The notes under the pieces: generated by a model
The model's input: the letters and a program-made list of their open reading frames with translations, nothing else
Databases searched by the model: none
What the model was told of the DNA's origin: nothing
Shown here: piece after piece, positions 12,014-60,638 of the stretch
How positions within the stretch are numbered: position 1 is the first letter of the stretch
Layout: each line of letters begins with the position of its first letter
Assembly (NCBI RefSeq): GCF_019075875.1
Contig: NZ_JAHOOZ010000001.1
Span: forward strand, 4,154,001 to 4,218,000
Direction of reading: 5' to 3'
DNA from: Novosphingobium sp. G106
GTDB lineage: Bacteria > Pseudomonadota > Alphaproteobacteria > Sphingomonadales > Sphingomonadaceae
Length of the DNA: 64,000 bases
Made by a program: the position numbers and the translations under genes

Positions 12014-12269
12014 GTTCGTCCCTTCACATCAGCGAAGCTGTGCCGATCGGGCCGAGGACGGGGGTGCTGGAGGAATGGGCCTCAGGACGCACCGAGCTCG
12101 GCTCGATGCGGTCCGACATCACGATCATCGCTGGAATGATCGCCAGAGGGGCCCGGTCCGCGCTTTGCGATGTAGCGGCGGCGGCGGCCCGGTTCAACCC
12201 CGCTGTCCAGCGAGCGCGCGTTCACGTCTCGCGCCTATTGCGTCCAGAACCGAGACAATCGCGTTTTCT

Positions 12270-17061: not shown

Positions 17062-17439
17062 TTAGACTGCCGCTTTTTCGACCAGACCTTTCACGGCCGC
17101 CATGAACGGCCCGATCGACACGGGCTTGGCCAGGTAGGAATCGGCGCCCGCCTCGCGGATGCGTTCCTCGTCGCCCTTGCCCGCATAGGCGGTTACCGCC
17201 AGCACCGGGATCGAGCGCAGGATGGGATCGGCCTTGGCCGCCTCGATCAGGTCGAGCCCCGAAACGTTGGGCAACTGGATGTCCATGATGATGAGGTTGG
17301 GGACGAAGCTCTTGGCCTTGTCCAGCGCATCGAGCCCATCGGCGACGGGCTCCACGGCATAGCCCTGACTCTTCAGCACGTCGCAGAACAGCTTCCGATT
17401 GAGATCGTTGTCCTCGACAACGAGGATTCGCTTTGCCAT
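17062..17439 (-). CDS. divK: Single-domain response regulator DivK
   Basis: 125 residues, receiver domain only. Phospho-acceptor Asp53 in LIIMDIQLPNVSG, acidic pair VVEDND at 7-12 and Lys105 in YLAKPVS. Size and sequence match DivK, which in alphaproteobacteria is phosphorylated by DivJ, dephosphorylated by PleC, and controls the DivL-CckA-CtrA cell-cycle relay. The divergent neighbour is DUF3572, a pairing common in this class of bacteria, which supports the name. Confidence 0.9.
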   Translation of the reverse strand: MAKRILVVEDNDLNRKLFCDVLKSQGYAVEPVADGLDALDKAKSFVPNLIIMDIQLPNVSGLDLIEAAKADPILRSIPVLAVTAYAGKGDEERIREAGADSYLAKPVSIGPFMAAVKGLVEKAAV

Positions 17440-28070: not shown

Positions 28071-29857
28071 GGAAGCAGCCTCGCTGGCATCAGGCCGCGC
28101 AGGGCATTGCCGATGAAAAATCCCTGGCCGAGATCGGCGAGCGTCAGCTCCGCCTCTTCGGCGCGGCCTTCCTCGATCAGCGCGCGGCGCAGCACGCCCG
28201 GCAGCAGGCCCAGCGCCAGCGGCGGGGTCAGCAGCTTGCCGTCGCGCTCGACGAAGACATTGGTGAAGCAGCCTTCGGTGACGAGCCCGTCGCTGCGCAG
28301 GAACAGCCCCTCTACCCCGCCCTCGGCCTGCGCCGCGGCAAGCCCGGCCTCGTAGAAGCCGCGGTCCGAATTCTTGTGCCGCAGCCGCCAATCGCCCGGA
28401 TCGACCGGCAGGCGGAACACCGCGCATGGCGCCGGGTCGGGCAAGTCGGCAGGAAGGTCGGCCAGTTCGAGGCTGTAGGAACCGCTGCGCGCGAGCACGA
28501 GCCGCAGTTTGCCCGGCCGATCGGCATCGAAGCACAGCGCCTGTATCGCGTTGCGCACGGCGTGGCGATCGAACAGGAAGCCGAGTTCCGAAGCGCTCGC
28601 CTTGATCCGTTCGAGATGCAGTTCGAGCAGCGGGATGCCGCCGTCGGGCGTGAAGGCCATGGTCTCGATCAGGTCGAAACTCGCCGGCGACTCTCGCACG
28701 AAACCCCCTTTGACCAGGCACTCGCGCCATTCGTCCAGTGCATCGGAATCGGCGACGATCGCCGATCCCACCCCCAGCACCGCACGACCCCGACCATTTT
28801 CGCCGGGTGTCAGACGCAAAGTTCGGATTGCCACATTGAACGCAGCATCGCCAGAGGGATCGATACGGCCGATTGCACCGCAGTATGCCCCCCGCGCATC
28901 GCGTTCGGTCTGCTGGATCAGTTCCATCGCCCGGATCTTGGGCGCGCCGGTGATCGAACCGCAGGGGAACAACGCGCGGATCATGTCGACCGCCCCCTTG
29001 CCCGGCTGCAGCCGCGCGCGCACGGTCGAGACCATCTGGTGCACGGTCGGATAGCTCTCGACCGCAAAGGCGTTCTCGACCCGCACCGAGCCCGGCTCGG
29101 CAACGCGAGAGAGATCGTTGCGCATCAGGTCGACGATCATCAGGTTCTCGGCGCGATCCTTGACCGAAGCGGCGAGTTCGTCGGCCAGCGTCTTGTCCTC
29201 GCCCGGCGTGCGGCCACGCGGACGCGTGCCCTTCATCGGCTTGACCGTCGCGGCGCCGTCTTTCAGCGCAAAGAACAGCTCGGGCGAGAAGCTGAGCAGC
29301 CAGTGCGTGCCGTCGAACACCACGCCGCCGTAACCGGCGCCCGCCGAGGGCCGGATCGCCGTGTAGAGCGCCAGCGGATCGCCGCGCCAGGACGCCGCGA
29401 GCGGAAAGGTCAGGTTGGCCTGGTAGATATCGCCCGCGCGGATCGCTTCCTGCAGCGCGGCGAAGTTGCGGCCATAGCCGCCGAATGAAAGCTGCGGCTC
29501 GAGCGGACCGATCGAGCCCGATGGACCACCGGCATTCGCCGCGAGCCACTGCGGTACTTGGGCGGCGGAAATCGTCTCGTAATTCTCGAAAGCACCGAAC
29601 CAGACCAGCGGCCCCATCGCCCCGGTTCGCCCCGCGGCGAGCGAGGCCAGCCGCGGTTCGAGCGCAAGGCCGGCCTCATAGGCGAGGTAGCCGGCCAGCT
29701 CGCGCCCTTCGGCATGCAGCGCCTCGATCCGCGCCAGCGCGGGCGCCACCTCTTCGGGCCGCCGTGCGACGACCAGCTCGACCGGCGCGCGGTAGAGCCT
29801 GGCGTCGCTCGCGCCCTCGGGCCGGGCATCGTCGAGCAGGATGAAGGGTTCGGCCAT
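28067..29857 (-). CDS. pabB: PabB-PabC fusion: aminodeoxychorismate synthase I and lyase
   Basis: 596 residues. Residues 1-375 are a chorismate-binding synthase: [13 protein letters not shown], the motif [16 protein letters not shown] (the Lys forms the covalent intermediate in PabB), [16 protein letters not shown] and [14 protein letters not shown]. Residues about 395-590 are a class IV PLP lyase domain: [19 protein letters not shown], a Lys in [10 protein letters not shown] and [12 protein letters not shown]. Together they make 4-aminobenzoate for folate, needing only the glutaminase PabA, absent here. Such fusions are known in alphaproteobacteria. Confidence 0.92.
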
Positions 29858-29959
29858 TCTGCCCGCCCTCTAGCCGCGACAGGCGCCGCTTGCAAAAAGC
29901 CTCTCGCACAGTGTCCTAGGCCCCGGTACACCTGTGCCGCAAGACAGCTGGAGTGCGGC

Positions 29960-31525
29960 ATGAGCGAGATCTACATCGGACTGGGCGCGAACAACGAGCG
30001 GCAGGTGCTGCACCTCGGCCGAGCTAACCGCCACGGGCTGATCGCCGGCGCGACGGGCACCGGCAAGACCGTCACGCTCCAGACCATCGCCGAGCAGTTC
30101 TCCGCCAACGGCGTCCCCGTCTTCCTCGCCGACGTGAAGGGCGATCTCTCGGGCATTTCGATGGCCGGCAGCCACGAGTTCAAGAACGCCGCGATCCTCG
30201 AAGGCCGGGCGAAGGAAATCGGCATCACCGACTACGCCTATCACGACAATCCGGCGATCTATTGGGATCTCTACGGCGAGCAGGGCCACCCGATCCGCAC
30301 AACCATCTCGGAAATGGGCCCCTTGCTGCTGTCGCGGCTGATGGGCCTCAACGAGACGCAGGAAGGCGTCCTCAACGTCGCCTTCCGCTATGCAGACGAC
30401 AACGGCTGGCTGCTGCTGAACCTCGAGGACCTGCAGGCCGTGCTCACCGCCACGGCCGAGAACGCCGGCGAGCTCGCGACCAAGTACGGCAACGTGTCGA
30501 AGGCCAGCGTCGGTACGATCCAGCGCCAGCTGCTCGCTTTCGACAGCCAGGGCGCAGCCAAGTTCTTCGGCGAGCCGGCCTTCGAGATCGCTGACTTCAT
30601 CCGCTGCGACGACAACGGCAAGGGCTACGTCAACATCCTCGCCGCCGACAAGCTGATGCAGAGCCCCAAGCTCTACGCCACCTTCCTGCTCTGGCTGCTG
30701 TCCGAACTGTTCGAGGCGCTTCCCGAAATGGGAGATCCCGACAAGCCCAAGCTCGTCTTCTTTTTCGACGAGGCGCACCTGCTGTTCGAGGACGCACCCG
30801 ACGCGCTGATGGACAAGGTCGAGCAGGTCGTCCGGCTGGTCCGCTCGAAAGGCGTCGGCGTCTATTTCATCACGCAGAACCCGATCGACATTCCCGAGAA
30901 GATCGCCGGCCAGCTCGGCAACCGCGTTCAGCACGCGCTGCGCGCCTTCACCCCGCGCGACCAGCGCGCGATCAAGGCCGCGGCCGAGACCTTCCGGATC
31001 AATCCCGATCTCGACGTCGAGAAGGCGATCACCGAGCTCAAGGTGGGCGAAGCGCTTGTCTCGACCTTGCAGGACGACGGCAGCCCCTCGGTGGTCCAGC
31101 GTACCCTGGTAGCGCCACCATGCTCGCGGCTCGGGCCGGTAACGCCCAAGGAGCGTGCGATCGTCCAGTCGATCAGCCCCTGCGAGGGTAAGTACGATAC
31201 CGAGGTGGATCGCGAATCCGCGTCCGAAATCCTGGCGCAGAAAGCACAGGATGCAGTGGCGGCGGCGCAAGTCGTCGAGCAGCAGGGCGAGGAAGCGCAG
31301 CGCGCGCAGCCGCGCCAGTCGCCCTCGCTCTGGGAGAAGGCCGGCAAGGCCGCGCTGGGCGCCGCCGCAGCTTCGGCCGGGACCATGGTCGCACGCAGCA
31401 TGAGCGGCCGGAAGTCTTCGGCATCGCCGATGGCCTCGGCCGCCACCGCCGCAGTAGGTGCGGTTCTGGGCAGCGGTGCGCTCGGCCGATTCGCACGGGG
31501 TTTGCTTGGCGGATTATTGCGCTAA
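29960..31525 (+). CDS. HerA-like ATPase, DUF853 family (YjgR type)
   Basis: 521 residues. Walker A GATGTGKT (30-37), [11 protein letters not shown], Walker B FFFDEAH (267-273), and [19 protein letters not shown] near 300. The last 90 residues are Ala/Gln rich, then hydrophobic and Gly-rich, ending [13 protein letters not shown]. The family is related to HerA/FtsK translocases; no NurA-like nuclease is adjacent and the cell role is unsettled. GGAG sits 7 nt before the ATG. Confidence 0.88.
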
Positions 31526-34197: not shown

Positions 34198-35637
34198 CTA
34201 AAGCGGCAGGCTGATCGTCGCGACCAGCCCAACGACTTTCCCGTCCGCACTGCGGCGGTTGGCAAGCGCGAGCGAGCCGCCGTGCTGCTCGGCGATGGCG
34301 CGGGCGAGGGTCAGGCCGAGCCCGGCCCCGCCGGTGGCGCTGTTGCGCGAAGGCTCGCCGCGCGAGAACGGCTCCATCATCCGCTCGATATCGGCTTCGG
34401 CGATACCCGGCCCATCGTCCTCGATCCAGATCACCGCCTGCCGCGTCTCTCGCACCAGTGACACCCGCGCGCGCTGGCCATAGCGCAGCGCATTGTCGAT
34501 CAGGTTGCGCAGGCCGCGGCGCAGCCAGGTCGACCGCACCGGCAGGACGATACGCGGCATGTCATTGAGTTCGACCGGCTCACCCATGTCCTCGTATTCC
34601 TCGACCACCGAAGCGACGAGCGCCGAGATCTCGGACTTCTCGAGCGGATCGCTCGGCCTGCCGACGCGAGCGAGCGAGAGGATATCGTCGAGCGAACGGA
34701 CGATATCCTCGATCGTCGCTGCCATGCGCGCTCGCTCGATATCGTCCTCGACCGATTCGATGCGCACGCGCAGCGCCGCGAGCGGCGTCTTGAGATCGTG
34801 GCCGATCGCGCCGAGCATCACGTCCTTTTCATCGAGCAACGCGGCGATGCGCGCTTCCATCGCATTGTGCGCGACGATCAGCCGGCGCACGTCGTCCGGG
34901 CCCTCTGGCTCGAGCTGGCCATCGGGGTTGCGCGTCTCGGTGAAGCGCTCGAGCCGCTCGGTCAGCGCCTCCAGCGGCCGCGTGATGCGCCGCAGGATCA
35001 GCGCGATCGCGCCCACCAGCACGACATAGATGAACAGCGTCTGCAGCAGCAGCGATATGACGATCGCGCGCTCGCCCGGCGGTACGATCGCGCGCGCGAC
35101 GATCCAACCGTCGCGTTCGGGTATCTTCACGGCCGCGACGACGACCTGCGTCGGCTGTTGTTCGTGCTGGGCAACGAGCACCCGCCGCTGCCGTTCGAGC
35201 CGGCGGCTGGCCACCTCGTCACGCGCGATCGCGCGCCGCAGCACGATGACGTCCGCCACGGCGAAGTCCTGGTCGGCAAGGATATGGCGCAGTTCGCCCT
35301 CGGCTTCACTGTCGCGCACGTCGCCCGCCTGCTGCGGCGATGCGATGGCACGCTCGGACCGGAAGCCGCCACCACCGCCGCCACCGCGAAAGCCGGGACC
35401 GAAATCGGGGCCGCGCCCCCTGCCTGCGTCGCGCGGCGGGCGACCCTGGGCGCGATCGTCGTCGTCGCGCGCCGAGAGAAGACGAAATGCTGCCGAATGC
35501 AGCAAGGCGGCTTCGCGCCGCTCGGCCCCCGCGCGATAGGCGAGAACCGCACCGATGAGCTGCGCGGCAAGCAGCGCGACCGCGACCGCGAGCATCATCT
35601 GCCCCATCAGACTGCGCGGCAGGAACCTGCGGATCAT
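34198..35637 (-). CDS. Sensor histidine kinase
   Basis: 479 residues. Membrane segments at about 13-34 and 192-215 flank a periplasmic region with a low-complexity Asp/Arg/Gly stretch (58-92, including seven Gly in a row). HAMP at 216-270, phospho-acceptor His280 in GAIGHDLKTPL, then N-box NLIDNALRYG, DDGPGIAEAD and GAGLGLTLA. EnvZ-like layout. The 4-bp overlap with the response regulator marks a cognate pair, and the upstream EF-hand gene suggests a metal or Ca2+-related signal. Confidence 0.9.
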   Translation of the reverse strand: MIRRFLPRSLMGQMMLAVAVALLAAQLIGAVLAYRAGAERREAALLHSAAFRLLSARDDDDRAQGRPPRDAGRGRGPDFGPGFRGGGGGGGFRSERAIASPQQAGDVRDSEAEGELRHILADQDFAVADVIVLRRAIARDEVASRRLERQRRVLVAQHEQQPTQVVVAAVKIPERDGWIVARAIVPPGERAIVISLLLQTLFIYVVLVGAIALILRRITRPLEALTERLERFTETRNPDGQLEPEGPDDVRRLIVAHNAMEARIAALLDEKDVMLGAIGHDLKTPLAALRVRIESVEDDIERARMAATIEDIVRSLDDILSLARVGRPSDPLEKSEISALVASVVEEYEDMGEPVELNDMPRIVLPVRSTWLRRGLRNLIDNALRYGQRARVSLVRETRQAVIWIEDDGPGIAEADIERMMEPFSRGEPSRNSATGGAGLGLTLARAIAEQHGGSLALANRRSADGKVVGLVATISLPL

Positions 35638-36374
35638 GCGGAAGCAGTGCGCTTGACGTCGGTGGCGAGCATGTAGCCGCCGCCCCAGACGGTCTGGATC
35701 AGCTGCGGGTTGCGGCTGTCGACCTCGATCTTGCGGCGCAGGCGGCTGACCTGGTTGTCGACCGCGCGGTCGAACAGATGCGCCTCGCGGCCCTGGACCA
35801 TGTCGAGCAGGCGGTCACGATCGAGCACCTGCCGCGGATGTTCGAGGAAGGCCATGAGCAGGCGGAACTCGACCGAAGAGATTGCCACGATCGCTCCTTC
35901 GGGGTCGATCAGCCGGCGCTTGAGCGGGTCGAGCTTCCAGCCTTCGAATTCGAACAGCTCGTTCTCGGGCGCGGCGGCGCTGCGGCCGGCGCGGCGGAGC
36001 ACGGAGCGGATGCGCGCGACCAGTTCGCGCGGCTCGAAGGGCTTCACGACGTAGTCGTCGGCGCCGATCTCAAGCCCGACGATGCGGTCGGTCGCCTCGC
36101 CTTTGGCCGTCAGGAAAATGGTCGGAATCGCGCGTGATTCGACGAGATGACGGCACAGCGACAGACCATCCTCGCCGGGCATCATGATGTCGAGCAGGAC
36201 GAGATCCGGGGCCGCCCCGTTGTTCTGGTCGTCGCGGATCTGGCTGCGCGCCTCTGCAGCGCTGGCTGCCTGGGCAACGTCGAACCCCTGGCGCGAGAGG
36301 TACTCGGCCAGGGGTTCGCGCAGGGCTGCCTCGTCGTCGACGATCAGCAGCCGGACGGGCGCGGTCTCGTTCAT
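35634..36374 (-). CDS. OmpR-family response regulator
   Basis: 246 residues. Receiver domain with acidic pair VDDE (12-15), phospho-acceptor Asp62 in LVLLDIMMPGEDG and Lys in DDYVVKPFEP; winged-helix output with ISSVEFRLLMAFLEHPRQVL and VDNQVSRLRRKIE. Lies between the EF-hand gene (18 bp upstream) and its kinase (4-bp overlap). A direct repeat upstream of the operon (37120-37135) is a candidate binding site for it. Confidence 0.92.
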   Translation of the reverse strand: MNETAPVRLLIVDDEAALREPLAEYLSRQGFDVAQAASAAEARSQIRDDQNNGAAPDLVLLDIMMPGEDGLSLCRHLVESRAIPTIFLTAKGEATDRIVGLEIGADDYVVKPFEPRELVARIRSVLRRAGRSAAAPENELFEFEGWKLDPLKRRLIDPEGAIVAISSVEFRLLMAFLEHPRQVLDRDRLLDMVQGREAHLFDRAVDNQVSRLRRKIEVDSRNPQLIQTVWGGGYMLATDVKRTASA

Positions 36375-37286: not shown

Positions 37287-38654
37287 ATGCGCAATCGCCT
37301 TCGCACGCCGGGCCGCCTTCTGCTCGCAATTGCCGGAGCCGCCGTCATCGCGGTGCAGCCCGCCGCCGCCCAATCGATCCTGCGCGATGCCGAGACCGAA
37401 GCGCTGCTGCACGACATGGCGCAGCCCATTGTCGTCGCCACGGGGCTCGACCCCAAGAACGTGGACGTCGTCCTGGTCAACGATTCCTCGGTGAACGCCT
37501 TCGTCGTCGGCGGTCAGGCGGTCTATCTCAACAGCGGACTGATCAACACGGCCGACAGCGCCAACGAGGTCCAGGGCGTGATCGCGCACGAACTAGGCCA
37601 CGTCGTCGGCGGCCATGCCATCAGCGACGGCGGCGGCAAGGCAGCCCAGGGCATCAGCCTGCTGTCGCTGCTGCTGGCGGCCGGCGCGGCCGCTGCAGGC
37701 GGCGGCGACGCGGCGATCGGCGTGCTTATGGCCGGGCAGCAGGCAGCTATGGGCAAGTACCTCGCCTTCAGCCGCAGCCAGGAATCGAGCGCGGACGCCG
37801 CCGGCGCGCAGTTCCTCTCGAAAGCCGGGATCACCGGCAAGGGCTCGGTCGCCTTCTTCAAGAAGCTGCAGAACCTTGAGTTCCGCTATGGCTTCACGCG
37901 CGACGCGGACTCCGAATTCTACAGCACCCACCCGATGACCGGCGACCGCATCACGACGCTGCAGGACACCTACGAGAAGGATCCGGCCTGGAACAAGCCC
38001 AGCGACCCGGCGATCGAGGCACGGTTCCAGCGGGCCAAGGCCAAGCTGTTCGGCTATCTGGCCGAACCCGCCGATACGCTGCGGACCTATCCCGAAGGCG
38101 ATAACTCGGTCCCCGCGCGCTATGCCCGCGCCTATGCCTTTCACAAGGACGCGCACCTCGACAAGGCGATGGACGAGACCGACGCGCTGCTCAAGCAGGC
38201 GCCCGACGACCCCTATTTCCTCGAGCTCAAGGGCCAGATCCTGCTCGAAGCGGGCAAGCCACTCGACGCGCTCGCCCCGTTGCGACGCGCGACCGAGCTC
38301 ACCAACAACCAGCCGCTTATCGCCACTACTTTCGGTCACGCGCTGATCGCCACCGAAGACGCCAAGAACATGCCGGAGGCGCAGCGCGTGCTGAAGGCGG
38401 CCGTGGCGCGCGACCGCGAGAACCCCTTTGCCTGGTACCAACTCGGCGTGGTCTATGCGGCCAACGGCGACATGCCGCGTGCGCGTCTCGCCAGCGCCGA
38501 GCAACAGGTGCTCTCGATGCGGATGCCCGAGGCTCTGGGCAGCGCCGAAGCGGCCGAGTCGGCGCTGCCCAAGGGCTCGCCCGACTGGCTGCGCGCGCAG
38601 GATATTGCCATGCAGGCGCGCGCGGCGATTGAACAGACCCGCAAACGCAGGTAG
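37287..38654 (+). CDS. M48 metalloprotease with TPR domain (BepA-like)
   Basis: 455 residues from ATG 37287; in-frame ATG 37233 would place extra residues before the signal peptide. Signal 1-29 (AVQPAAAQ). Zinc site HELGH with His101 and His105, Glu102 catalytic, third ligand Glu166 in SQESSADAAG. A hydrophobic Gly/Ala loop at 122-150 follows the active site, and TPR-like repeats fill about 275-450. BepA-type periplasmic proteases remove misassembled outer membrane proteins such as LptD. Confidence 0.9.
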   Translation: MRNRLRTPGRLLLAIAGAAVIAVQPAAAQSILRDAETEALLHDMAQPIVVATGLDPKNVDVVLVNDSSVNAFVVGGQAVYLNSGLINTADSANEVQGVIAHELGHVVGGHAISDGGGKAAQGISLLSLLLAAGAAAAGGGDAAIGVLMAGQQAAMGKYLAFSRSQESSADAAGAQFLSKAGITGKGSVAFFKKLQNLEFRYGFTRDADSEFYSTHPMTGDRITTLQDTYEKDPAWNKPSDPAIEARFQRAKAKLFGYLAEPADTLRTYPEGDNSVPARYARAYAFHKDAHLDKAMDETDALLKQAPDDPYFLELKGQILLEAGKPLDALAPLRRATELTNNQPLIATTFGHALIATEDAKNMPEAQRVLKAAVARDRENPFAWYQLGVVYAANGDMPRARLASAEQQVLSMRMPEALGSAEAAESALPKGSPDWLRAQDIAMQARAAIEQTRKRR

Positions 38655-38664
38655 CCCGCCGCCT

Positions 38665-39399
38665 ATGAACTCTCGCAATTGGACGGTGCTGACCGTCGTC
38701 GGAATCGTTCTCGCCCTCGGTGCCGGCCTGCTCGTCGGTCGCTATTGGCACGACAGTGATCGGACTAAGGGCAACCGTGCCGAGGTCGAAAAGATCGTCC
38801 GCGAGTATATCCTCGACCATCCCGAGATCCTGCCCCAGGCGATGGAGAACCTGCAGAAGCGCGAGAATGCGCAAGCGCTCTCGGGCATCAGCGATCAGGT
38901 TCACGCCCCCTTCCCCGGCGCCGTTCTGGGCAACCCGCAAGGCAAGGTGACGCTGGTCGAGTTCACCGACTTCGCTTGCACATTCTGCCGTCAGAGCGTC
39001 GCCGAGGTCGAGCAGCTGATCGCCGCCAATCCTGACCTGCGCGTCGTGGTGCGCGAGTTGCCGATCCTCAGTCCGCAGAGCGCCAATGCCGCCAAGATGG
39101 CGCTCGCCGCCGCAGAGCAAGGCAAATATGCCGCGTTCCACAACGCGATGTACGCCGCCGGGCAGCCCAGCCCCGAAACGATCGCCGCCGCCGCCCAGGC
39201 CGCCGGGCTCGACATGGACCGTGCGAACAAGACCATCGCCGATCCCAGGCTCGAGGCGGAACTGACACGCAACGTCGAATTCGCCCGCAGGCTGGGCTTC
39301 AGCGGCACACCGAGCTGGATCGCGGGCGATGCGCTGCTCTCGGGCGCCGTGGGCAAGGACCGGCTGGCCGAAGCGATCGAGGCTGCGCGGAAGGGGTGA
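38665..39399 (+). CDS. Membrane-anchored DsbA-like thiol-disulfide oxidoreductase
   Basis: 244 residues. One N-terminal membrane anchor (7-26), a charged helix with DHPEILPQAMENLQKRE typical of the DsbA/ScsC-like N-terminal extension, then a thioredoxin fold with active site CTFC (105-108) and cis-Pro in GFSGTPSWI. It should oxidise or isomerise disulfides in the periplasm. Ten bp after the BepA-like protease, so envelope quality-control genes are grouped. Confidence 0.87.
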   Translation: MNSRNWTVLTVVGIVLALGAGLLVGRYWHDSDRTKGNRAEVEKIVREYILDHPEILPQAMENLQKRENAQALSGISDQVHAPFPGAVLGNPQGKVTLVEFTDFACTFCRQSVAEVEQLIAANPDLRVVVRELPILSPQSANAAKMALAAAEQGKYAAFHNAMYAAGQPSPETIAAAAQAAGLDMDRANKTIADPRLEAELTRNVEFARRLGFSGTPSWIAGDALLSGAVGKDRLAEAIEAARKG

Positions 39400-39479: not shown

Positions 39480-40610
39480 CTACACCGCCTCCAACAAATA
39501 CAACTCCAGCTCGCCGGCTTCCTTCGCCAGCGCCTTGCGTCCGACCGAAGTGAAGCGGCAGTCGTTGCAATCGTCGATCAGCAGCGCCGCGGCGAAGCTT
39601 TCGGTGCAATAGACCCCGCCGACCGGCGTTACCGGCTCGATCCGGGCCGTGCGGTTGACCTCGCTGCCGTACCAGATGCGGTTGCCGGTGATGCGGTCTG
39701 TGCCGACCCAGATCGGACCATAGTGCAGGCCGATGCGCATCCCCGCGATGCCGCCGGGCGGGGTCAGCGCCGGCGGCAGGTCCGCCAGGCGCTGCTGCAG
39801 CGCCAATGCCAGCCGCGCAGCGATGCGCGGCTCGTCGACGATCGCGTAGATCGCGTCGCCCCAAGTGTTGCGGAACTCGACGTGGTCGCCGAACTCGGCC
39901 AGCACCGCGCCGATGCGGCCCATGACCTCGGCCATGAACAGCGGCAGTTCGCGCTCGCCGAGCCGCGAGAAGCCCTTGTAGTCGGCGAAGAGGACCGAGC
40001 GGATCTCGCGCCGCGTGCCGTCGCCGGCGGGCGCGTGCTGCGGGAAGGCCAGGTTGCGCTCCACCGGGCCGGCCGGGATCGCCACGGTCTCGCGCCCCAG
40101 CGCCTGCCACATGCCGATGTCGGCGAGCGTGCCGGCAAGCCCGGTCTTCGACAGCGTCTGGAACTTGTCCGAAATCACCGCCACCTGCACCGCCTCGCTA
40201 CCGATCTGCTGGGCGCGCAGCGCGGTGAGACCCATGACCAGGCGGGTATTATAGGCAAACTGGTTGTCGTCGCCGACATAAGCCCCCGGCGTGGCGAAAT
40301 GGACCGCCACCGCGGCATCGCGGCAGGCATGATAGCGCGCCAACCAGCCCTCGCCGCCGCAGAGCACCGATTCGGGAATGAAGTCCTCTTCCGCAAAGGG
40401 CAGCACGACGTTGAGCTCGGCCCCGCGCGCTAGTAGCGCCTCGGCAATGAGTAGATCGGCGCCGCAGGCCAACGGGCCATAGCCGATCGTCGTGCCCAGC
40501 CGGTCGAGCGCCTCGCCGATCCGTGCGGCAAGTGGCACTTCCTCGGCACAGCCAGCGTTGAACATATGACCGCAATAGCCGACGACCGCGGCCGGGCCGG
40601 TCTCAGCCAC
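39480..40610 (-). CDS. SLOG-like domain fused to class III nucleotide cyclase
   Basis: 376 residues. Residues 5-150 look like a Rossmannoid SLOG-type nucleotide-sensing domain (GYGPLACGADLLIAEALL, VVLPFAEEDF, ARYHACRDA). Residues 200-376 are a class III cyclase: metal Asp210 in FADYKGFS and Asp252 in NTWGDAIYA, transition-state Asn319 and Arg323 in EVNRTAR. By eye, the purine-specifying Lys/Glu position is Asn248 and the partner Asp position is Ile312, so the substrate may not be ATP or GTP. Its ATG overlaps the TIR gene's end by 8 bp, so the pair is translationally coupled. Function as a second-messenger synthase for the TIR protein is inference. Confidence 0.8.
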   Translation of the reverse strand: MAETGPAAVVGYCGHMFNAGCAEEVPLAARIGEALDRLGTTIGYGPLACGADLLIAEALLARGAELNVVLPFAEEDFIPESVLCGGEGWLARYHACRDAAVAVHFATPGAYVGDDNQFAYNTRLVMGLTALRAQQIGSEAVQVAVISDKFQTLSKTGLAGTLADIGMWQALGRETVAIPAGPVERNLAFPQHAPAGDGTRREIRSVLFADYKGFSRLGERELPLFMAEVMGRIGAVLAEFGDHVEFRNTWGDAIYAIVDEPRIAARLALALQQRLADLPPALTPPGGIAGMRIGLHYGPIWVGTDRITGNRIWYGSEVNRTARIEPVTPVGGVYCTESFAAALLIDDCNDCRFTSVGRKALAKEAGELELYLLEAV

Positions 40611-41580
40611 CGTAGCGCGCCTCGGCCTTGGCCAACAGGTCGACGTTTGACTGCTCGGTCGGCGTCAGCTGCACCTGATCGTAAAGTGGCTTGTACCAGG
40701 TATAGCGGCTGAACCAGTCGCGCAGCCAGGGATCGTTGAACTTGCGTCCCTTGCGCGCATAAATCTCGTTGCGCGCGATCCGCAGGGTCGTCGGGCCCTT
40801 CGACATGACTTCGGCGGCCGTCAGCAGCCGCGTGCTGGAATCGGGAAATTCCATGTCGGCCGGATTGGGCTTGAGCGCCGCCTCCTGATCGGGATCGAGA
40901 ACCGGGGCCGGTACCGCCTGCGAAGGCGTGGGAGCGGCCGCCTCGGGCTGCGGTGCGGCAACGGCAGGGGCCGGCGCTGCCACGGGAGCGGCGCTGGAAG
41001 GCGGCGTGGCCGGAGCATTGCTACCCCGCCCCAGCAACATACCGCCCGCCACGGCCAGCGCGACCACGGCTATGCCGATGCCCGCGAACAGCGGCCAACG
41101 CGACGCAGTGGGTGCGGGGGCCGGGGTGGGCTGCGGTTGGTACTGCGGTGGCGGCGGAACGCGCGGCGTCGACGGTTCCGCGGTGCCGCGCTGGCCACAC
41201 AGATCGGCCAGGCTGAGCTTGACCTTGCGCCATCCCGGATGGTCGTCCTCGCCGCGCCAGTCGCCCATTTCGGCATACTGGATCTGGTTGAATGGCAGCG
41301 GCGGCATGACATCGTCGATCGCGGTCTGAATCAGCTTGCGCTGGTTGCGCGCCATGTCGGCCTCGGCGCGGACCCATTCCGATTTGGCCGCGCTGGCCGA
41401 CCAGACGACGATCGCCGCCTTGGCGCTCGCGACTTTCTCGGTGATCACGTCGCCATAGGACTGGTGCGGCGGCAGCTCGGCATCCCACCACACGTCATAG
41501 CCGGCCGCCTCTACGGCGCGGGCCAGCATCGCCACCATCGGCTGGTCGCTGCGCGAATAGGAAATGAATACGTCGACCAT
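40603..41580 (-). CDS. TIR-transmembrane-YARHG protein
   Basis: 325 residues. TIR domain 1-130: VFISYSRSDQ, BB-loop region DVWWDAELPPHQSYGD, and SEWVRAE with Glu73 four residues after Trp69, the spacing of the NAD-cleaving Glu in SARM1-type TIRs. A Pro-rich linker, one membrane helix (162-184), a long Ala/Pro linker and a C-terminal YARHG domain (about 247-322, NEIYARKGRKFNDPWLRDWF) follow. TIR would be cytoplasmic and YARHG likely periplasmic. First gene of the operon with the SLOG-cyclase. No cyclic-nucleotide-binding domain is visible. Confidence 0.85.
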   Translation of the reverse strand: MVDVFISYSRSDQPMVAMLARAVEAAGYDVWWDAELPPHQSYGDVITEKVASAKAAIVVWSASAAKSEWVRAEADMARNQRKLIQTAIDDVMPPLPFNQIQYAEMGDWRGEDDHPGWRKVKLSLADLCGQRGTAEPSTPRVPPPPQYQPQPTPAPAPTASRWPLFAGIGIAVVALAVAGGMLLGRGSNAPATPPSSAAPVAAPAPAVAAPQPEAAAPTPSQAVPAPVLDPDQEAALKPNPADMEFPDSSTRLLTAAEVMSKGPTTLRIARNEIYARKGRKFNDPWLRDWFSRYTWYKPLYDQVQLTPTEQSNVDLLAKAEARYGG

Positions 41581-41679: not shown

Positions 41680-42840
41680 ATGGCCGTGCTGCCCTTCCGA
41701 CCGACGCCCTTCTTCGCCAACAAGAACCAGGCCTTCTGGCGCCTGCAGGCAGCCGGCTGGGCCGGTGCGATGCTGCTGCGCGCGATGTCGAGCCTGGCCA
41801 ATGCCCAGCCGCCCTCGTTCCTCGTGCTGCTGCTGATCGCGACGATCACGGGCTTCTCGATCTCGCTGCTGCTTTCGGTGGTCTATCGCCAGCTGATCCA
41901 GCAGCGGCCGCTGATCACCTGGGGCGTGACCATGCTGATCCTGCCGTTCGCGGTGGCGCTCAACGCCTTCATCGATGCCTGGGTAATCTCGCTCTACCGC
42001 GCCGAGAGCGAATCCAGCTTCGCACAGCTGTTCGTCGGCGTGTTCTACCTCGACCTGACGCTGCTCGGCGCCTGGTCCGCGCTCTATTACGCGATCAATT
42101 TCTTCCTCCAGATCGAGGAGCAGAACGACCAGCTGATCCGGCTGGAGAACCAGGCGACCAGCGCCCAGCTCGCCATGCTGCGCTACCAGCTGAACCCGCA
42201 CTTCCTGTTCAACACGCTGAACTCGATCTCGACGCTGGTGCTGCTCAAACAGACCGAACCGGCCAACGCGATGCTGAGCCGCTTGTCATCGTTCCTGCGC
42301 TACACGCTGATCAACGAGCCCGGCGGGCGGGTCACGGTCTCGCAGGAAATCGACACGCTGAAGCTCTACCTCGACATCGAACGGATGCGCTTCGAGGAGC
42401 GGCTGCGCACCACCTTCAACGTCGATCCGGCGACCGAGACCGCGCTGCTGCCCTCGCTGCTGCTGCAGCCACTGGTCGAGAACGCGATCAAATATGCGGT
42501 CGGCCCGCAGGAGAGCGGCGCCGAGATCACGATCACGACGCAACTCATCGGCCAGAACCTTCGCATCACCGTCTCGGACACCGGCCCGGGCTTGCAAAGC
42601 GCCAGCACCAGCAACAGGTTGTCGGGCGTGAGTTTCGACGGCGGCGAACCTGTATCCACCGGGGTGGGATTGGCGAACATTCGCGATCGCCTGGCGCAAG
42701 CCTATGGCGAGCAGCATCGTTTCGAGACGTTGGAACCACCCGAGGGCGGCTTTGCCGTCGTCATCGAGATCCCCGTAGAACGCCGCGAAATTGCGGAACA
42801 GGAACCCATCGCGCCGCGAATCGTTGCTGCCGCGGGTTGA
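41680..42840 (+). CDS. LytS/AlgZ-type sensor histidine kinase
   Basis: 386 residues. About four membrane helices in 25-145, then a coiled helix QNDQLIRLENQATSAQLAML, phospho-acceptor His174 in LNPHFLFNTLNS, and ATP-binding boxes PLVENAIKYAV, SDTGPGL and GVGLANIRDRL. Works with the LytTR regulator encoded 44 bp downstream. It is divergent from the TIR-cyclase operon with a 99-bp gap that may hold both promoters. Confidence 0.9.
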   Translation: MAVLPFRPTPFFANKNQAFWRLQAAGWAGAMLLRAMSSLANAQPPSFLVLLLIATITGFSISLLLSVVYRQLIQQRPLITWGVTMLILPFAVALNAFIDAWVISLYRAESESSFAQLFVGVFYLDLTLLGAWSALYYAINFFLQIEEQNDQLIRLENQATSAQLAMLRYQLNPHFLFNTLNSISTLVLLKQTEPANAMLSRLSSFLRYTLINEPGGRVTVSQEIDTLKLYLDIERMRFEERLRTTFNVDPATETALLPSLLLQPLVENAIKYAVGPQESGAEITITTQLIGQNLRITVSDTGPGLQSASTSNRLSGVSFDGGEPVSTGVGLANIRDRLAQAYGEQHRFETLEPPEGGFAVVIEIPVERREIAEQEPIAPRIVAAAG

Positions 42841-57462: not shown

Positions 57463-57947
57463 TACAGCATTCCCAGTTCGAGCTTGGCCTCGTCGCTCAT
57501 CGACGACATGTCCCACGGCGGGTCCCAGACGAGATTGACTTCGGCATCGCGCACGCCGGGAACCGCGCTGACGCGCAGTTCGACTTCGCCCGGCATCGAT
57601 TCCGCCACCGGGCAATGCGGCGTGGTCAGCGTCATAGTCACCTTGACCTCGCCGTCATCAGTGACGTCGACGCCGTAGATCAGGCCGAGGTCGTAGATGT
57701 TGACCGGGATCTCGGGGTCGAAGATTTCCTTCAGCGCCGAGACGACGCCGTCGTAGATCGCCCCGCCGGGTTCGCCTTCAGCTGCGCCCTGCGGCTTTTC
57801 CGCGAGGAAGCCTTCGAGATAATCACGCTTGCGAGAGAGCTTGGCGCCAGGAGTCTCAGGAGCCGTCTCGATATCCTCGACACGCGCACGCGGCGGCGGC
57901 GTCACGCTCTCGACTTCTTCCACGGTGAACTTGGTCTCTTCACTCAT
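57462..57947 (-). CDS. sufT: SUF system Fe-S assembly protein SufT
   Basis: 161 residues. A variable, charged N-terminus (1-70) precedes the DUF59/MIP18 domain: LKEIFDPEIPVNIYDLGLIY, VTMTLTTPHCPVAESMPG with the conserved Cys, and VNLVWDPPWDMSSMS. Helps Fe-S maturation under demand. ATGA overlap with sufS. Confidence 0.92.
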   Translation of the reverse strand: MSEETKFTVEEVESVTPPPRARVEDIETAPETPGAKLSRKRDYLEGFLAEKPQGAAEGEPGGAIYDGVVSALKEIFDPEIPVNIYDLGLIYGVDVTDDGEVKVTMTLTTPHCPVAESMPGEVELRVSAVPGVRDAEVNLVWDPPWDMSSMSDEAKLELGML

Positions 57948-59161
57948 CCGAAGATCCTCTTGGTCCTCTCGATGCCGCGCAGGAGCGCGGCAATATCGCT
58001 TTCGTCGCTATAGATGCCGAAGCTGGCCCGCGCCGTCGCCGGCACGCCGAGCCAGTCCATCAACGGCTGCGCGCAATGATGCCCGGCGCGGATCGCCACG
58101 CCTTCCTCGTCCAATATGGTGCCGAGGTCGTGCGGATGCACCCCGTCGAGCGCGAAGGAGACGATGCCGGCCGATTGCTCGGGACCGAACACGGTCACCG
58201 AATTGAGCCGGCGCAGTTGGTCGCGCGCCTGCGCGGTCAGCGCCATTTCGTGCGCCGAGATCGCCTCGATGCCGATCGCCTCAACGTAATCGACCGCCGC
58301 AGCGAAGCCGATCGCCTCGATGATCGCCGGGGTGCCAGCCTCGAACCGCGCGGGCGGCGGGGCATAGGTCGTGCGCTCGAAGGTCACGCGGTCGATCATC
58401 GCGCCACCGCCGTGCCAGGGGGGCATCGATTCGAGAATCTCCGCCCGCGCCCAGAGTGCTCCGATGCCCGTAGGCCCGTAGAGCTTGTGCGCTGAAAAGA
58501 CGTAGAAATCCGCGCCCATCGCCGCGACATCGACCGGTAACCTGGGAACCGCCTGACAGCCGTCGACCAGCACCTTCGCGCCGACCCGGTGCGCCAAAGC
58601 GACGGCATGTTCCACGTGGAGCATCGAGCCGAGCACGTTCGAGACATGGGCGAGCGATACCAGCTTGTGCGCCGGCGTCAGCAAGCGCTCGGCCGCGGCC
58701 AGGTCGATCAGGCCATCGGGCGTCAGCGGGCAGACGTCGATCTCGACGCCGGTGCGGTCGCGCAGTAGCTGCCACGGGATGATGTTGGCGTGATGCTCGA
58801 GCGTCGACAGCAGGATACGGTCGCCGGCCTTGAGATGGGTGTTGCCCCACGAGTGCGCGACGAGATTGATCGCCTCGGTCGCGCCGCGGGTGAAGACCAG
58901 CTCGTGCTCGGGCGCGCCGATGAAGGCCGCGATCCGGCGCCGCGCCGCCTCGTAGGCCAAGGTCATGTCGGCCGAACGCGCATAGACGCCGCGGTGGACC
59001 GTGGCGTAGTCGGCGCCCATCGCGCGGACGGTAGCGTCGATCACCGCCTGCGGCTTCTGCGCCGTGGCGGCCGTGTCGAGGTAGTGCCAGGGGCTGCCGT
59101 CGGCCATCACCAGGCCGGGGAAATCCTGACGTACGGAGCGGATGGGAGTAGCCACGTTCAC
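57944..59161 (-). CDS. sufS: Cysteine desulfurase SufS
   Basis: 405 residues, class V PLP fold. HYLDTAATAQKPQAVID, HRGVYARSADMTLAYEAARR, PLP-Lys in VFSAHKLYGPTGIG, active-site Cys in IRAGHHCAQPL. Releases sulfur from cysteine for SufBCD. GTG 59161 overlaps the sufD stop (GTGA); GTG 59155 is the alternative. No sufE gene is adjacent in this window. Confidence 0.93.
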   Translation of the reverse strand: MNVATPIRSVRQDFPGLVMADGSPWHYLDTAATAQKPQAVIDATVRAMGADYATVHRGVYARSADMTLAYEAARRRIAAFIGAPEHELVFTRGATEAINLVAHSWGNTHLKAGDRILLSTLEHHANIIPWQLLRDRTGVEIDVCPLTPDGLIDLAAAERLLTPAHKLVSLAHVSNVLGSMLHVEHAVALAHRVGAKVLVDGCQAVPRLPVDVAAMGADFYVFSAHKLYGPTGIGALWARAEILESMPPWHGGGAMIDRVTFERTTYAPPPARFEAGTPAIIEAIGFAAAVDYVEAIGIEAISAHEMALTAQARDQLRRLNSVTVFGPEQSAGIVSFALDGVHPHDLGTILDEEGVAIRAGHHCAQPLMDWLGVPATARASFGIYSDESDIAALLRGIERTKRIFG

Positions 59162-59895
59162 AGCATCGCCTCCAGCCGCAATAGCGCCGCCTGGGTCAGG
59201 CTCTCCTCGTCGGCCGCGCCGGTGAAGGCCTCGGCGATGAAGGCTTGGAGCATCAGCTGCTTGGCTTCGGGCGGAGTCAGGCCGCGCGACTGCAGATAGA
59301 ACAGGCCCATCGCATCGAGCTCGCCCACCGCGCAGCCGTGTGCGCACTTGACGTCGTCGGCGTAGATTTCGAGTTCGGGCTTGGCATTGGCCGTCGCGGT
59401 CCGATCGAGCAGCATCGCCCGCACCGACTGCTCGGCATCGGTCCCATCGCTGCCGCGTGCGACCGCGACCTTGCCGAGATAGGTGCCCACGGCCTGGTTG
59501 CCGAGCACCGAGCGCACCACCTGCCGGCTGACCGCGTTGGGCGCCTCGTGGCTGACTTCGGTGACGATCTCCAGCGTCTGCGCGCCCGAACCGAGCTGCG
59601 CGGCGCCGAGCGTGAACGATGCCCCCTCGCCCAGCCGCGCTTCCACCGCAATGCGGCCGAAAACGTTGCCAGCATTTAGAATGCGCAAGTCGAAAGCCGC
59701 CCCGGCCTCCACTTCGATCACCAGATGCCGCGCGACAGCGGCCTCACCCTGCTCGACGACGCTCAGCGATGTGTTCTGCCCGCTCGGCACGAGAATTTCC
59801 TCGCGCGCAACCGGCCATACGCCCGCCAGCGCATCGATATCCGAATAACGGAACGCTTCGCTCTTGCGCGTCGGAAGGGGCGCGAGTTCGCTCAC
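59158..59895 (-). CDS. sufD: Fe-S scaffold component SufD
   Basis: 245 residues, shorter than E. coli SufD (about 420), as in sphingomonads. KSEAFRYSDIDAL at the start, YADDVKCAHGCAVGELDAMG and FYLQSRGLTPPEAKQLMLQA near the end are the conserved SufBD core. GTG start overlaps the sufC stop. Forms SufBC2D with its neighbours. Confidence 0.92.
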   Translation of the reverse strand: MSELAPLPTRKSEAFRYSDIDALAGVWPVAREEILVPSGQNTSLSVVEQGEAAVARHLVIEVEAGAAFDLRILNAGNVFGRIAVEARLGEGASFTLGAAQLGSGAQTLEIVTEVSHEAPNAVSRQVVRSVLGNQAVGTYLGKVAVARGSDGTDAEQSVRAMLLDRTATANAKPELEIYADDVKCAHGCAVGELDAMGLFYLQSRGLTPPEAKQLMLQAFIAEAFTGAADEESLTQAALLRLEAML

Positions 59896-60638
59896 GCCAC
59901 CGCCTCGTAGCCTTCTTCTTCCAGCTGAAGCGCCAGCTCGGGACCGCCAGTCTTGACGATGCGGCCGCCGGCGAGGACGTGGACCTTGTCGGGCTTCACG
60001 TAGTCGAGCAGCCGCTGGTAGTGGGTGATGAGCAGCACGCCCTTGTTCGGCTTGCGCATGATCGCGTTGATCCCCTCGCCGACGATGCGCAGGGCATCGA
60101 TGTCGAGGCCCGAATCGGTCTCGTCGAGCACGGCGAACTTGGGATCGAGGATGCCCATCTGGACCATCTCGGCGCGCTTCTTCTCGCCGCCCGAGAAGCC
60201 GACGTTCACCGGGCGCTTGAGCATGTCCATGTCCATGCGCAGCAGCGCTGCCTTCTCCTTGGCGAGCTTGAGGAATTCACCGCCCGACAGCGGCTCCTCA
60301 CCGCGCCCGCGGCGCTGGGCATTGGCCGCCTCGCGCAGGAACTGGACGAAGGAGACGCCAGGAATCTCGACCGGATACTGGAAGCCGAGGAACAAGCCGG
60401 CGGCAGCGCGTTCGTAGGGTTCGAGCGCGAGCAGGTCCTGTCCGGCGAAATCCACCGAGCCGCCGGTCACAGCGTAGCCGGGCCGGCCGCCGAGCGTGTA
60501 GCCGAGCGTCGACTTGCCCGCACCGTTGGGCCCCATGATCGCGTGAATCTCACCCGCATTCACGGTGAGCGAAAGGCCCTTGAGGATCAGCTTGTCGGCG
60601 ACGGTGGCCTGGAGGTTGTCAATCTTGAGCATGGTCAT
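59892..60638 (-). CDS. sufC: Fe-S assembly ATPase SufC
   Basis: 248 residues. Walker A GPNGAGKST (36-44), Q-loop FQYPVEIPGVS, signature FSGGEKKR, Walker B FAVLDETDSGLD, and the switch His in LITHYQRLL. Drives SufBC2D. ATG 60638 or 60632. It begins 2 nt after the DUF559 gene's stop. Confidence 0.94.
   Translation of the reverse strand: MTMLKIDNLQATVADKLILKGLSLTVNAGEIHAIMGPNGAGKSTLGYTLGGRPGYAVTGGSVDFAGQDLLALEPYERAAAGLFLGFQYPVEIPGVSFVQFLREAANAQRRGRGEEPLSGGEFLKLAKEKAALLRMDMDMLKRPVNVGFSGGEKKRAEMVQMGILDPKFAVLDETDSGLDIDALRIVGEGINAIMRKPNKGVLLITHYQRLLDYVKPDKVHVLAGGRIVKTGGPELALQLEEEGYEAVA

Follow-up and report, generated by a model that had tools for sequence, protein, structure and literature searches.

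A membrane TIR-YARHG protein paired with a SLOG-class III nucleotide cyclase in Novosphingobium sp. G106: a candidate two-protein signalling relay

A two-gene operon encoding a membrane TIR protein and a SLOG domain fused to a nucleotide cyclase was analyzed in a 64,000-nt stretch of the Novosphingobium sp. G106 genome (the window; all coordinates are positions within it). Judged from its sequence, the operon is a stripped two-gene member of a TPR-S/SLOG/cyclase family. We give about an even chance to the reading that the two proteins form a relay running from TIR to SLOG to cyclase to cyclic nucleotide, with the membrane TIR as the input. Burroughs and Aravind reportedly predicted TPR-S-centred nucleotide-signalling systems composed of TPR-S, SLOG, cyclase and TIR in 2020; against that background the stripped pair would be the new part. 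In the open-access titles and abstract openings listed by the searches, neither the TIR-TM-YARHG/SLOG-cyclase pair nor a TPR-S/SLOG/cyclase protein was described, which is a slight indication that the stripped pair is novel. The initial annotation knew of no named system with this exact architecture; this holds for the pair itself within those titles and abstract openings, but the operon can be placed as a reduced member of the TPR-S/SLOG/cyclase family.

If the relay is correct, a minimal two-gene unit would join two chemistries that have so far been studied separately: NAD-derived TIR signals with SLOG as their reader, and the cyclic nucleotides of class III enzymes. The operon would then tell whether bacterial TIR signalling feeds non-lethal second-messenger circuits besides suicide effectors. 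It would also place TPR-S, which in these proteins matches the Pfam MAP3K TRAFs-binding family as well, in a bacterial context.

Domains and catalytic residues of the two proteins

The first gene of the operon (40603..41580, ATG start) encodes the TIR-TM-YARHG protein of 325 aa (P0121) and the second (39480..40610, GTG start) encodes the SLOG-class III nucleotide cyclase of 376 aa. Both lie on the minus strand, as do all of the features described below for the two proteins, and by their ORF coordinates they overlap by 8 bp (40603..40610). Both open reading frames were found where the initial annotation had placed them, and coordinates, Pfam and hydropathy agree with its description of an overlapping gene pair that includes a membrane TIR protein with Glu73.

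The TIR_2 domain occupies residues 3-111 (41248..41574; Pfam E 7.6e-21) and the YARHG domain residues 241-319 (40624..40860; Pfam E 3e-19). Between them lies the one hydrophobic segment of the protein, a predicted transmembrane segment at residues 164-182 (41035..41091; mean KD hydropathy 2.37), and no other separate segment exceeds 1.6. This topology would place the TIR domain in the cytosol and the YARHG domain in the periplasm. The putative NADase glutamate E73 (41362..41364) is preceded by W69 (41374-41376) four residues ahead, and these residue numbers were verified in the protein. The two residues form a WxxxE motif that we take to be the NADase motif of the TIR domain, and both are invariant in 35 of 35 aligned TIR proteins (32 chosen from 120 listed relatives plus 3 from the loci). 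The NCBIfam and PADLOC profiles gave weak or partial matches only on the two proteins. For the TIR protein, the ThsB_TIR profile scored 19.6 bits (below its cut-off of 21.2), the PADLOC ThsB profile matched residues 2-86 only (E 1.2e-5), and the SAVED_TIR match was confined to the TIR part (residues 2-74). A cyclic-nucleotide-binding domain (CNBD; PF00027) is absent from the TIR protein in Pfam at E up to 1. The founding YARHG paper (PMC3355149) links YARHG and SH3 domains to the cell wall, and no TIR was found in the passages searched.

In the cyclase protein, residues 1-200 have no Pfam match. The whole-chain model was predicted with a pLDDT of 93.5 and a pTM of 0.91, and since cyclases filled the list of the whole-chain structure search, the N-terminal domain was modelled alone. 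This isolated model has a SLOG fold (residues 6-182, 40065..40595) that is closest to YpsA among the best 50 structures listed, which upholds the SLOG-like domain proposed in the initial annotation. The first SLOG strand begins at residue 9 in the predicted model. A sequence profile of the N-terminal domain gave nothing significant against solved structures (best E 0.3). ThsA and other STALD SLOGs are absent among the 50 structures listed and may be present further down. The solved YpsA chain consists of one domain of 178 residues, whereas the window SLOG is fused to a cyclase. According to PMC9503650, cADPR sensors belong to the YpsA-like SLOG clade and the signals of ThsB are recognised by the SLOG domain of ThsA.

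The C-terminal domain (residues 205-374, 39489..39998; Guanylate_cyc, Pfam E 7.2e-8) is assigned to class III by its sequence and predicted fold. Like CyaB, Rv1900c and soluble guanylate cyclase, it has a predicted class III fold and the catalytic Asp/Asn/Arg positions. From what is known of class III cyclases, D210 (39981..39983) and D252 (39855-39857) are presumably the metal-binding Asp a and Asp b, and N319 (39654-39656) and R323 (39642-39644) the transition-state pair. D210, D252 and R323 are each present in at least 90% of 50 chosen sequences. N319 is kept in the window clade, but many divergent relatives of the 50-sequence alignment have T, V or A at this position, which makes cyclase activity across the family uncertain. 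The window cyclase itself looks catalytically competent. The lysine of canonical class III cyclases specifies the purine; unlike those enzymes, the window protein has N248 (39867..39869, aligned with the K of 3mr7) at this position, and the asparagine is present in at least 90% of the 50 chosen relatives. The base of the product is not predictable from these residues, and a pyrimidine is possible. The TIR and cyclase catalytic positions are intact, and the TIR/SLOG/cyclase signalling theme raised in the initial annotation is supported.

Distribution, pairing and genomic site

The window's genome holds a single SLOG-cyclase copy, the second match (E 1.1e-7) being to the cyclase domain only. SLOG-cyclases were found in 27 of 247 genomes and 14 of 70 genera of the order (E<=1e-30) and in 16 of 398 genomes of the phylum; the genus to which the window belongs has them in just 1 genome of 16. 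Scanning genome_contigs by peptide patterns, a method biased towards close relatives, yielded 28 loci, of which 25 carry labels of Sphingomonadales genera or families, 1 is labelled Alphaproteobacteria and 2 are labelled Candidatus Odyssella. None of 72,556 plasmid or 50,697 phage records contained a SLOG-cyclase match. Since few genomes carry the gene and plasmid and phage records gave no match, it is patchily distributed and, on present evidence, chromosomal. A mobile-element origin was rejected on the plasmid and phage result, and a fixed core gene on the presence of the cyclase in only 27 of the 247 order genomes.

The initial annotation named conserved pairing across genomes as a check, and a genome survey supports such pairing. 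With iterated profiles, 22 of the 27 order loci, window included, proved to have a TIR gene no more than 3 kb away, and pairs of this kind are also seen in other genera. One further locus (L037, G180) has a TIR gene directly upstream of the cyclase and was missed in the 3-kb count because its flank sequence is short, which brings the order total to 23 of 27. A contig end cuts another locus (L116, G084) and leaves a TIR-TPR-type fragment at its edge; no TIR is found near the order loci L105, L124 and L125. Of the 28 genome_contigs loci, which overlap in part with the order loci, 19 have a TIR gene at most 3 kb away, and of the 9 without one, L024, L029 and L030 are near contig ends. Beyond the order, matches came from 12 new genomes (one of them, L160, by the cyclase half only), and 11 were examined; a TIR gene is nearby in 4 of these 11 relatives, on the opposite strand in 2 of the 4.

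Eight of the 247 order genomes have a close TIR relative (E<1e-55, the match after these being at 2e-44). The cyclase is present in every one of these 8, compared with 27 of 247 overall (hypergeometric 7e-9, ignoring shared ancestry). A lone cyclase is seen in 8 genomes. In 5 of them another part of the genome still encodes a TIR of 58-68% identity; the 2 such unlinked TIRs that were scanned (L119 and L121) had no YARHG match. The other 3 have no close TIR and only TIR paralogues of 34-35%, so a genome can carry the cyclase and lack this TIR. TIR distances rise with cyclase distances across the 23 pairs of adjacent genes (r 0.69, matched by 0 of 2000 permutations), a correlation that fits co-inheritance but does not control for the species tree. 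Over these pairs the TIR domains are 75% identical on average versus 67% for the SLOG-cyclase. With 2 TIR_2 matches above cut-off in the 7.2 Mb of the window's genome (G000) and recurrence in other genera, the pairing is more than chance.

The operon is flanked by two genes on the plus strand: a DsbA/ScsC-like thioredoxin gene (38653..39399; assigned by Pfam, start codon provisional), whose orthologue adjoins the kinase gene in relatives, and a histidine kinase gene (41680..42840; Pfam His_kinase), which is divergent from the TIR gene. Both are present in 31 of 31 genomes of the genus. Among 28 relatives with both genes on one contig, the gap between them is at most 200 bp in 20 and larger in 8, and no TIR or cyclase match was found in nine of these intervals that were examined. 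The window has a gap of 2283 bp here, occupied by the cassette. Two loci labelled Novosphingobium (L003 and L004) have the cassette between the same dsbA and kinase genes, and L008 has the dsbA/M48 side in common with the window. In L131, from another genus, the cassette adjoins dsbA/M48 with the kinase ~2 kb off on the other side, and the cyclase at this locus (also L036) has a TPR region, with a TPR-S score of 22.8 bits against a cut-off of 27.6. The simplest reading is that this is an old locus where the cassette was often lost and where, in the window lineage, TPR-S was lost in place rather than never gained. Repeated insertion of the cassette at one site may instead be the explanation.

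A PADLOC comparison of 55 of the 61 proteins predicted for the window revealed no recognisable defence system, the TIR protein's own matches aside. The assignment of matches to individual proteins covered 20 of the 55. It gave SduA matches to two response-regulator-like proteins, one partial (17065-17439; E 1.9e-13, profile positions 6-90 of 323) and one at E 6.5e-6 (35637-36374), as well as partial or generic matches to SspA/DndA (57947-59347), mad8 and HerA (29558-31522) and mad3 (59895-60638). A defence island is not supported, as the matches are only partial or generic where located. One dCTPase match (E 1.2e-8) was also seen among the window proteins.

Divergent relatives and known systems

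Open frames are longer in the divergent members from the order (L035-L056, 31-53% identity) and include a TPR region. When 15 divergent proteins were searched with Pfam, TPR-S (PF20308) scored above cut-off in 8 and below cut-off in 6, the latter including L036, P0310 and L154, and gave no match in 1 (P0307); some divergent members also match MAP3K_TRAF_bd. The window cyclase protein lacks TPR-S. A RyR domain was seen in 64 of 95 listed family proteins.

The TIR partner differs among these relatives. A TIR-YARHG gene lies upstream of divergent cyclases in L035-L038 (four genomes; longer stretches L130-L132). In four genomes from a single genus (L126-L129) a TIR gene lies downstream, and the sole member scanned (L043, the same as L129) has a TIR-FHA protein with an FHA domain. 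A TIR-TPR gene precedes the cyclase in 11 of L107-L118 and follows it in L106; the Pfam scan of this group covered L107, L109 and L117. The TIR-TPR group stands apart from the window TIR by profile score, with WVxxE kept in the 13 sequences examined. Between the TIR-TPR gene and the cyclase, L109, L115 and L118 have a pNTSase1-like gene, found with a profile grown from L109; the L109 neighbour scored exactly at threshold against Pfam pNTSase1 (PF20301). TIRs of two divergent profile groups with differing C-termini accompany the same SLOG-cyclase. One metagenome sequence (P0310) joins TIR, nSTAND1, a weak TPR-S, SLOG and cyclase in a single chain, and the window cyclase is 36% identical to it over 360 columns.

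Other relatives point to likely outputs and to further inputs, and cyclic-nucleotide readers accompany some of them. The gene directly upstream of the cyclase encodes a Crp-type regulator in L153 and a cNMP-binding ABC protein in L155, and one sequence (P0295) is a fusion of ABC ATPase, cNMP_binding, TPR-S, SLOG and cyclase. The L154 open frame has a vWA domain ahead of TPR-S-SLOG-cyclase; this fusion is an open-frame reading alone, since the database form (P0241) is shorter, at 749 aa. In L156 and L157 a dCache-SpoIIE protein is encoded upstream of the cyclase.

The operon resembles the TPR-S-centred systems in its SLOG-cyclase core with a TIR neighbour, in the TPR-S carried by its relatives, and in the pNTSase1-matching gene beside L109. 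It is unlike them in that its cyclase lacks TPR-S, its TIR protein is predicted to be membrane-anchored and carries YARHG, and pNTSase1 is absent from the operon, where the 8-bp overlap of the two genes leaves no room for it. Like type I Thoeris (ThsA/ThsB), it is a two-gene operon of a TIR protein and a SLOG-bearing partner in which the TIR catalytic Glu position is intact (E73, with W69). Unlike in Thoeris, the SLOG domain is N-terminal, has YpsA as its best listed match and is joined to a nucleotide cyclase instead of a SIR2 NADase, and the TIR is a predicted membrane protein. Thoeris membership was rejected on the ThsB_TIR score and on the class III cyclase that takes the place of SIR2 in the SLOG partner. 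CBASS was rejected as well; neither protein has a CD-NTase match in Pfam, NCBIfam or PADLOC, and the cyclase is class III.

Proposed relay and alternative readings

In the proposed relay, the periplasmic or membrane part of the TIR protein would sense a disturbance, and the TIR domain would then make an NAD+-derived nucleotide signal or change conformation. The SLOG domain of the partner would bind the TIR-derived signal and switch on the attached class III cyclase. The resulting cyclic mononucleotide would be read by a host cNMP-binding protein, of the Crp/Fnr type or other; the window's genome has 15 cNMP_binding matches, which are candidates for this reader. The TPR-S region of the divergent relatives probably shares in sensing; since the window lineage lacks it, SLOG would be the only sensor left on the window cyclase.

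The TIR protein is placed upstream of the cyclase mainly because a constant SLOG-cyclase has interchangeable front parts and, in some cases, cNMP-reader neighbours. The TIR looks more like an input than an output, as it is the part that is exchanged, and the cNMP-binding partners are a Crp-type regulator and ABC proteins. By analogy, these observations favour a wiring like that of Thoeris in which a cyclase takes the position of SIR2. Counted for the relay are the YpsA-like SLOG fold, the linkage and co-occurrence with TIR, the TIR exchange, the cNMP readers and the invariant W69/E73. Counted against it are the lone cyclases, the few TIRs outside the order, the N319 replacements and the absence of ThsA among the 50 structures listed, and its direction is read from context. 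The natural series of relatives with and without TPR-S, with several TIR partner types and with fusions makes the signalling direction testable. A more specific version, which we hold to be rather unlikely, is a trans-envelope relay of two messengers, in which a periplasm-sensing TIR would pass an NAD+-derived signal to a YpsA-like SLOG and a cyclase of non-canonical base. Thoeris wiring would here have exchanged its SIR2 suicide effector for a second-messenger amplifier, and the system would have been reduced in place from a TPR-S ancestor.

Envelope-stress signalling, not immunity, is the best of the alternatives and is possible if on balance improbable. The periplasmic YARHG (or SH3) domain would report on peptidoglycan, the TIR would be mainly an oligomerising scaffold, and the SLOG-cyclase would set the cyclic-nucleotide level for ordinary physiology. 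This would suit the dsbA/M48 neighbourhood held in common with L131 and also with L003, L004 and L008, the lack of plasmid and phage matches and of a recognisable defence system among 55 window proteins, the higher conservation of the TIR than of the SLOG-cyclase in the 23 pairs, the vWA domain of the L154 open frame, and the tie of YARHG and SH3 to the cell wall in PMC3355149. It is harder to reconcile with the patchy spread (27 of the 247 genomes from the order and a single one of 16 from the genus), the exchange of TIR partners and the NADase-motif W and E kept in all 35 aligned TIRs. TPR-S and pNTSase1 belong to predicted conflict systems, and this kinship also speaks against ordinary physiology. 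The self-contained immunity module of the initial annotation is unproven: patchiness and conflict-system kinship argue for an immune role, but the conserved TIR and the site shared with a relative from another genus also fit envelope signalling, and no other recognisable defence system is seen among the 55 window proteins compared.

The initial annotation also had the cyclase messenger triggering the TIR response. In this Pycsar-like order, which we regard as decidedly unlikely, SLOG would sense an infection nucleotide and the cyclase would make a messenger that activates an NAD-destroying TIR effector. This order would suit the encoding of a class III cyclase and a TIR protein in one operon, as in Pycsar (PycC/PycTIR), the weak match of the PycC profile to the cyclase (E 0.0021, residues 276-331 only), and the non-canonical N248 at the base-specifying position. 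According to PMC11224242, however, PycTIR consists of a CNBD and a TIR. Because the window TIR protein has no CNBD, the pair, as its sequence indicates, is not Pycsar; the SLOG domain on the cyclase is a further difference. The cNMP readers of the relatives sit on other proteins, the TIR is the N-terminal domain of the nSTAND1 chain in P0310, and the TIR part is exchanged around a constant SLOG-cyclase, all of which speaks for the reverse order.

It is very improbable that the two proteins are co-transcribed and work separately, for example as an orphan TIR envelope factor and a general cyclase: the 9 of 28 genome_contigs loci without a TIR within 3 kb (three of them near contig ends) and the 3 of 8 lone-cyclase genomes without any close TIR would suit this, but TIR and cyclase co-occur unlinked in the other 5 of the 8, different TIRs stand beside related cyclases, and P0310 carries both in a single chain.

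Apparent changes to the cassette in relatives

At two loci labelled Novosphingobium (L003, 3669-5987; L004, 3-3073) the cyclase gene is preceded upstream by a tandem pair of TIR genes, and because of this arrangement the TIR gene seems to have been duplicated inside the cassette. At a further locus, L037 (genome G180), an in-frame TAG lies within the SLOG-cyclase gene, which is apparently a broken copy; a TIR gene adjoins it.

Fused SLOG-cyclase proteins

A 1303-aa open frame at L154 (3882-7793) joins vWA, TPR-S (below the cut-off) and SLOG-cyclase regions, whereas the database form of this protein (P0241) is 749 aa long. If real, the longer frame is a membrane version in a single chain. The RyR domain, which may be an additional sensor, was found in 64 of the 95 listed SLOG-cyclase relatives. 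Proteins such as P0242 have the architecture RyR-TPR-S-SLOG-cyclase, and the source names include Pyrinomonadaceae, Verrucomicrobia, and Chroococcidiopsis.

An apparent TIR expansion in some Sphingomonadales

In the sample of 247 genomes of the order, some genomes (e.g. G119, G131, and G148) encode many TIR proteins that match the TIR of the window weakly and whose open frames are mostly near 570-720 aa. This looks like a TIR expansion, and the search of the sample for the cyclase gave no match in G131 and G148.

Other features of the interval and the window

In two genus relatives (L176, 1219-2844; L177, 1379-3029) the interval between the DsbA/ScsC-like gene and the histidine kinase gene is occupied by other genes, judged by eye to encode a metallopeptidase-like and an HD-like protein, and the interval is therefore a site of differing cargo. 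A cis-regulatory terC RNA element (Rfam RF03067, 65.5 bits) is located at 12104-12164 on the minus strand of the window.
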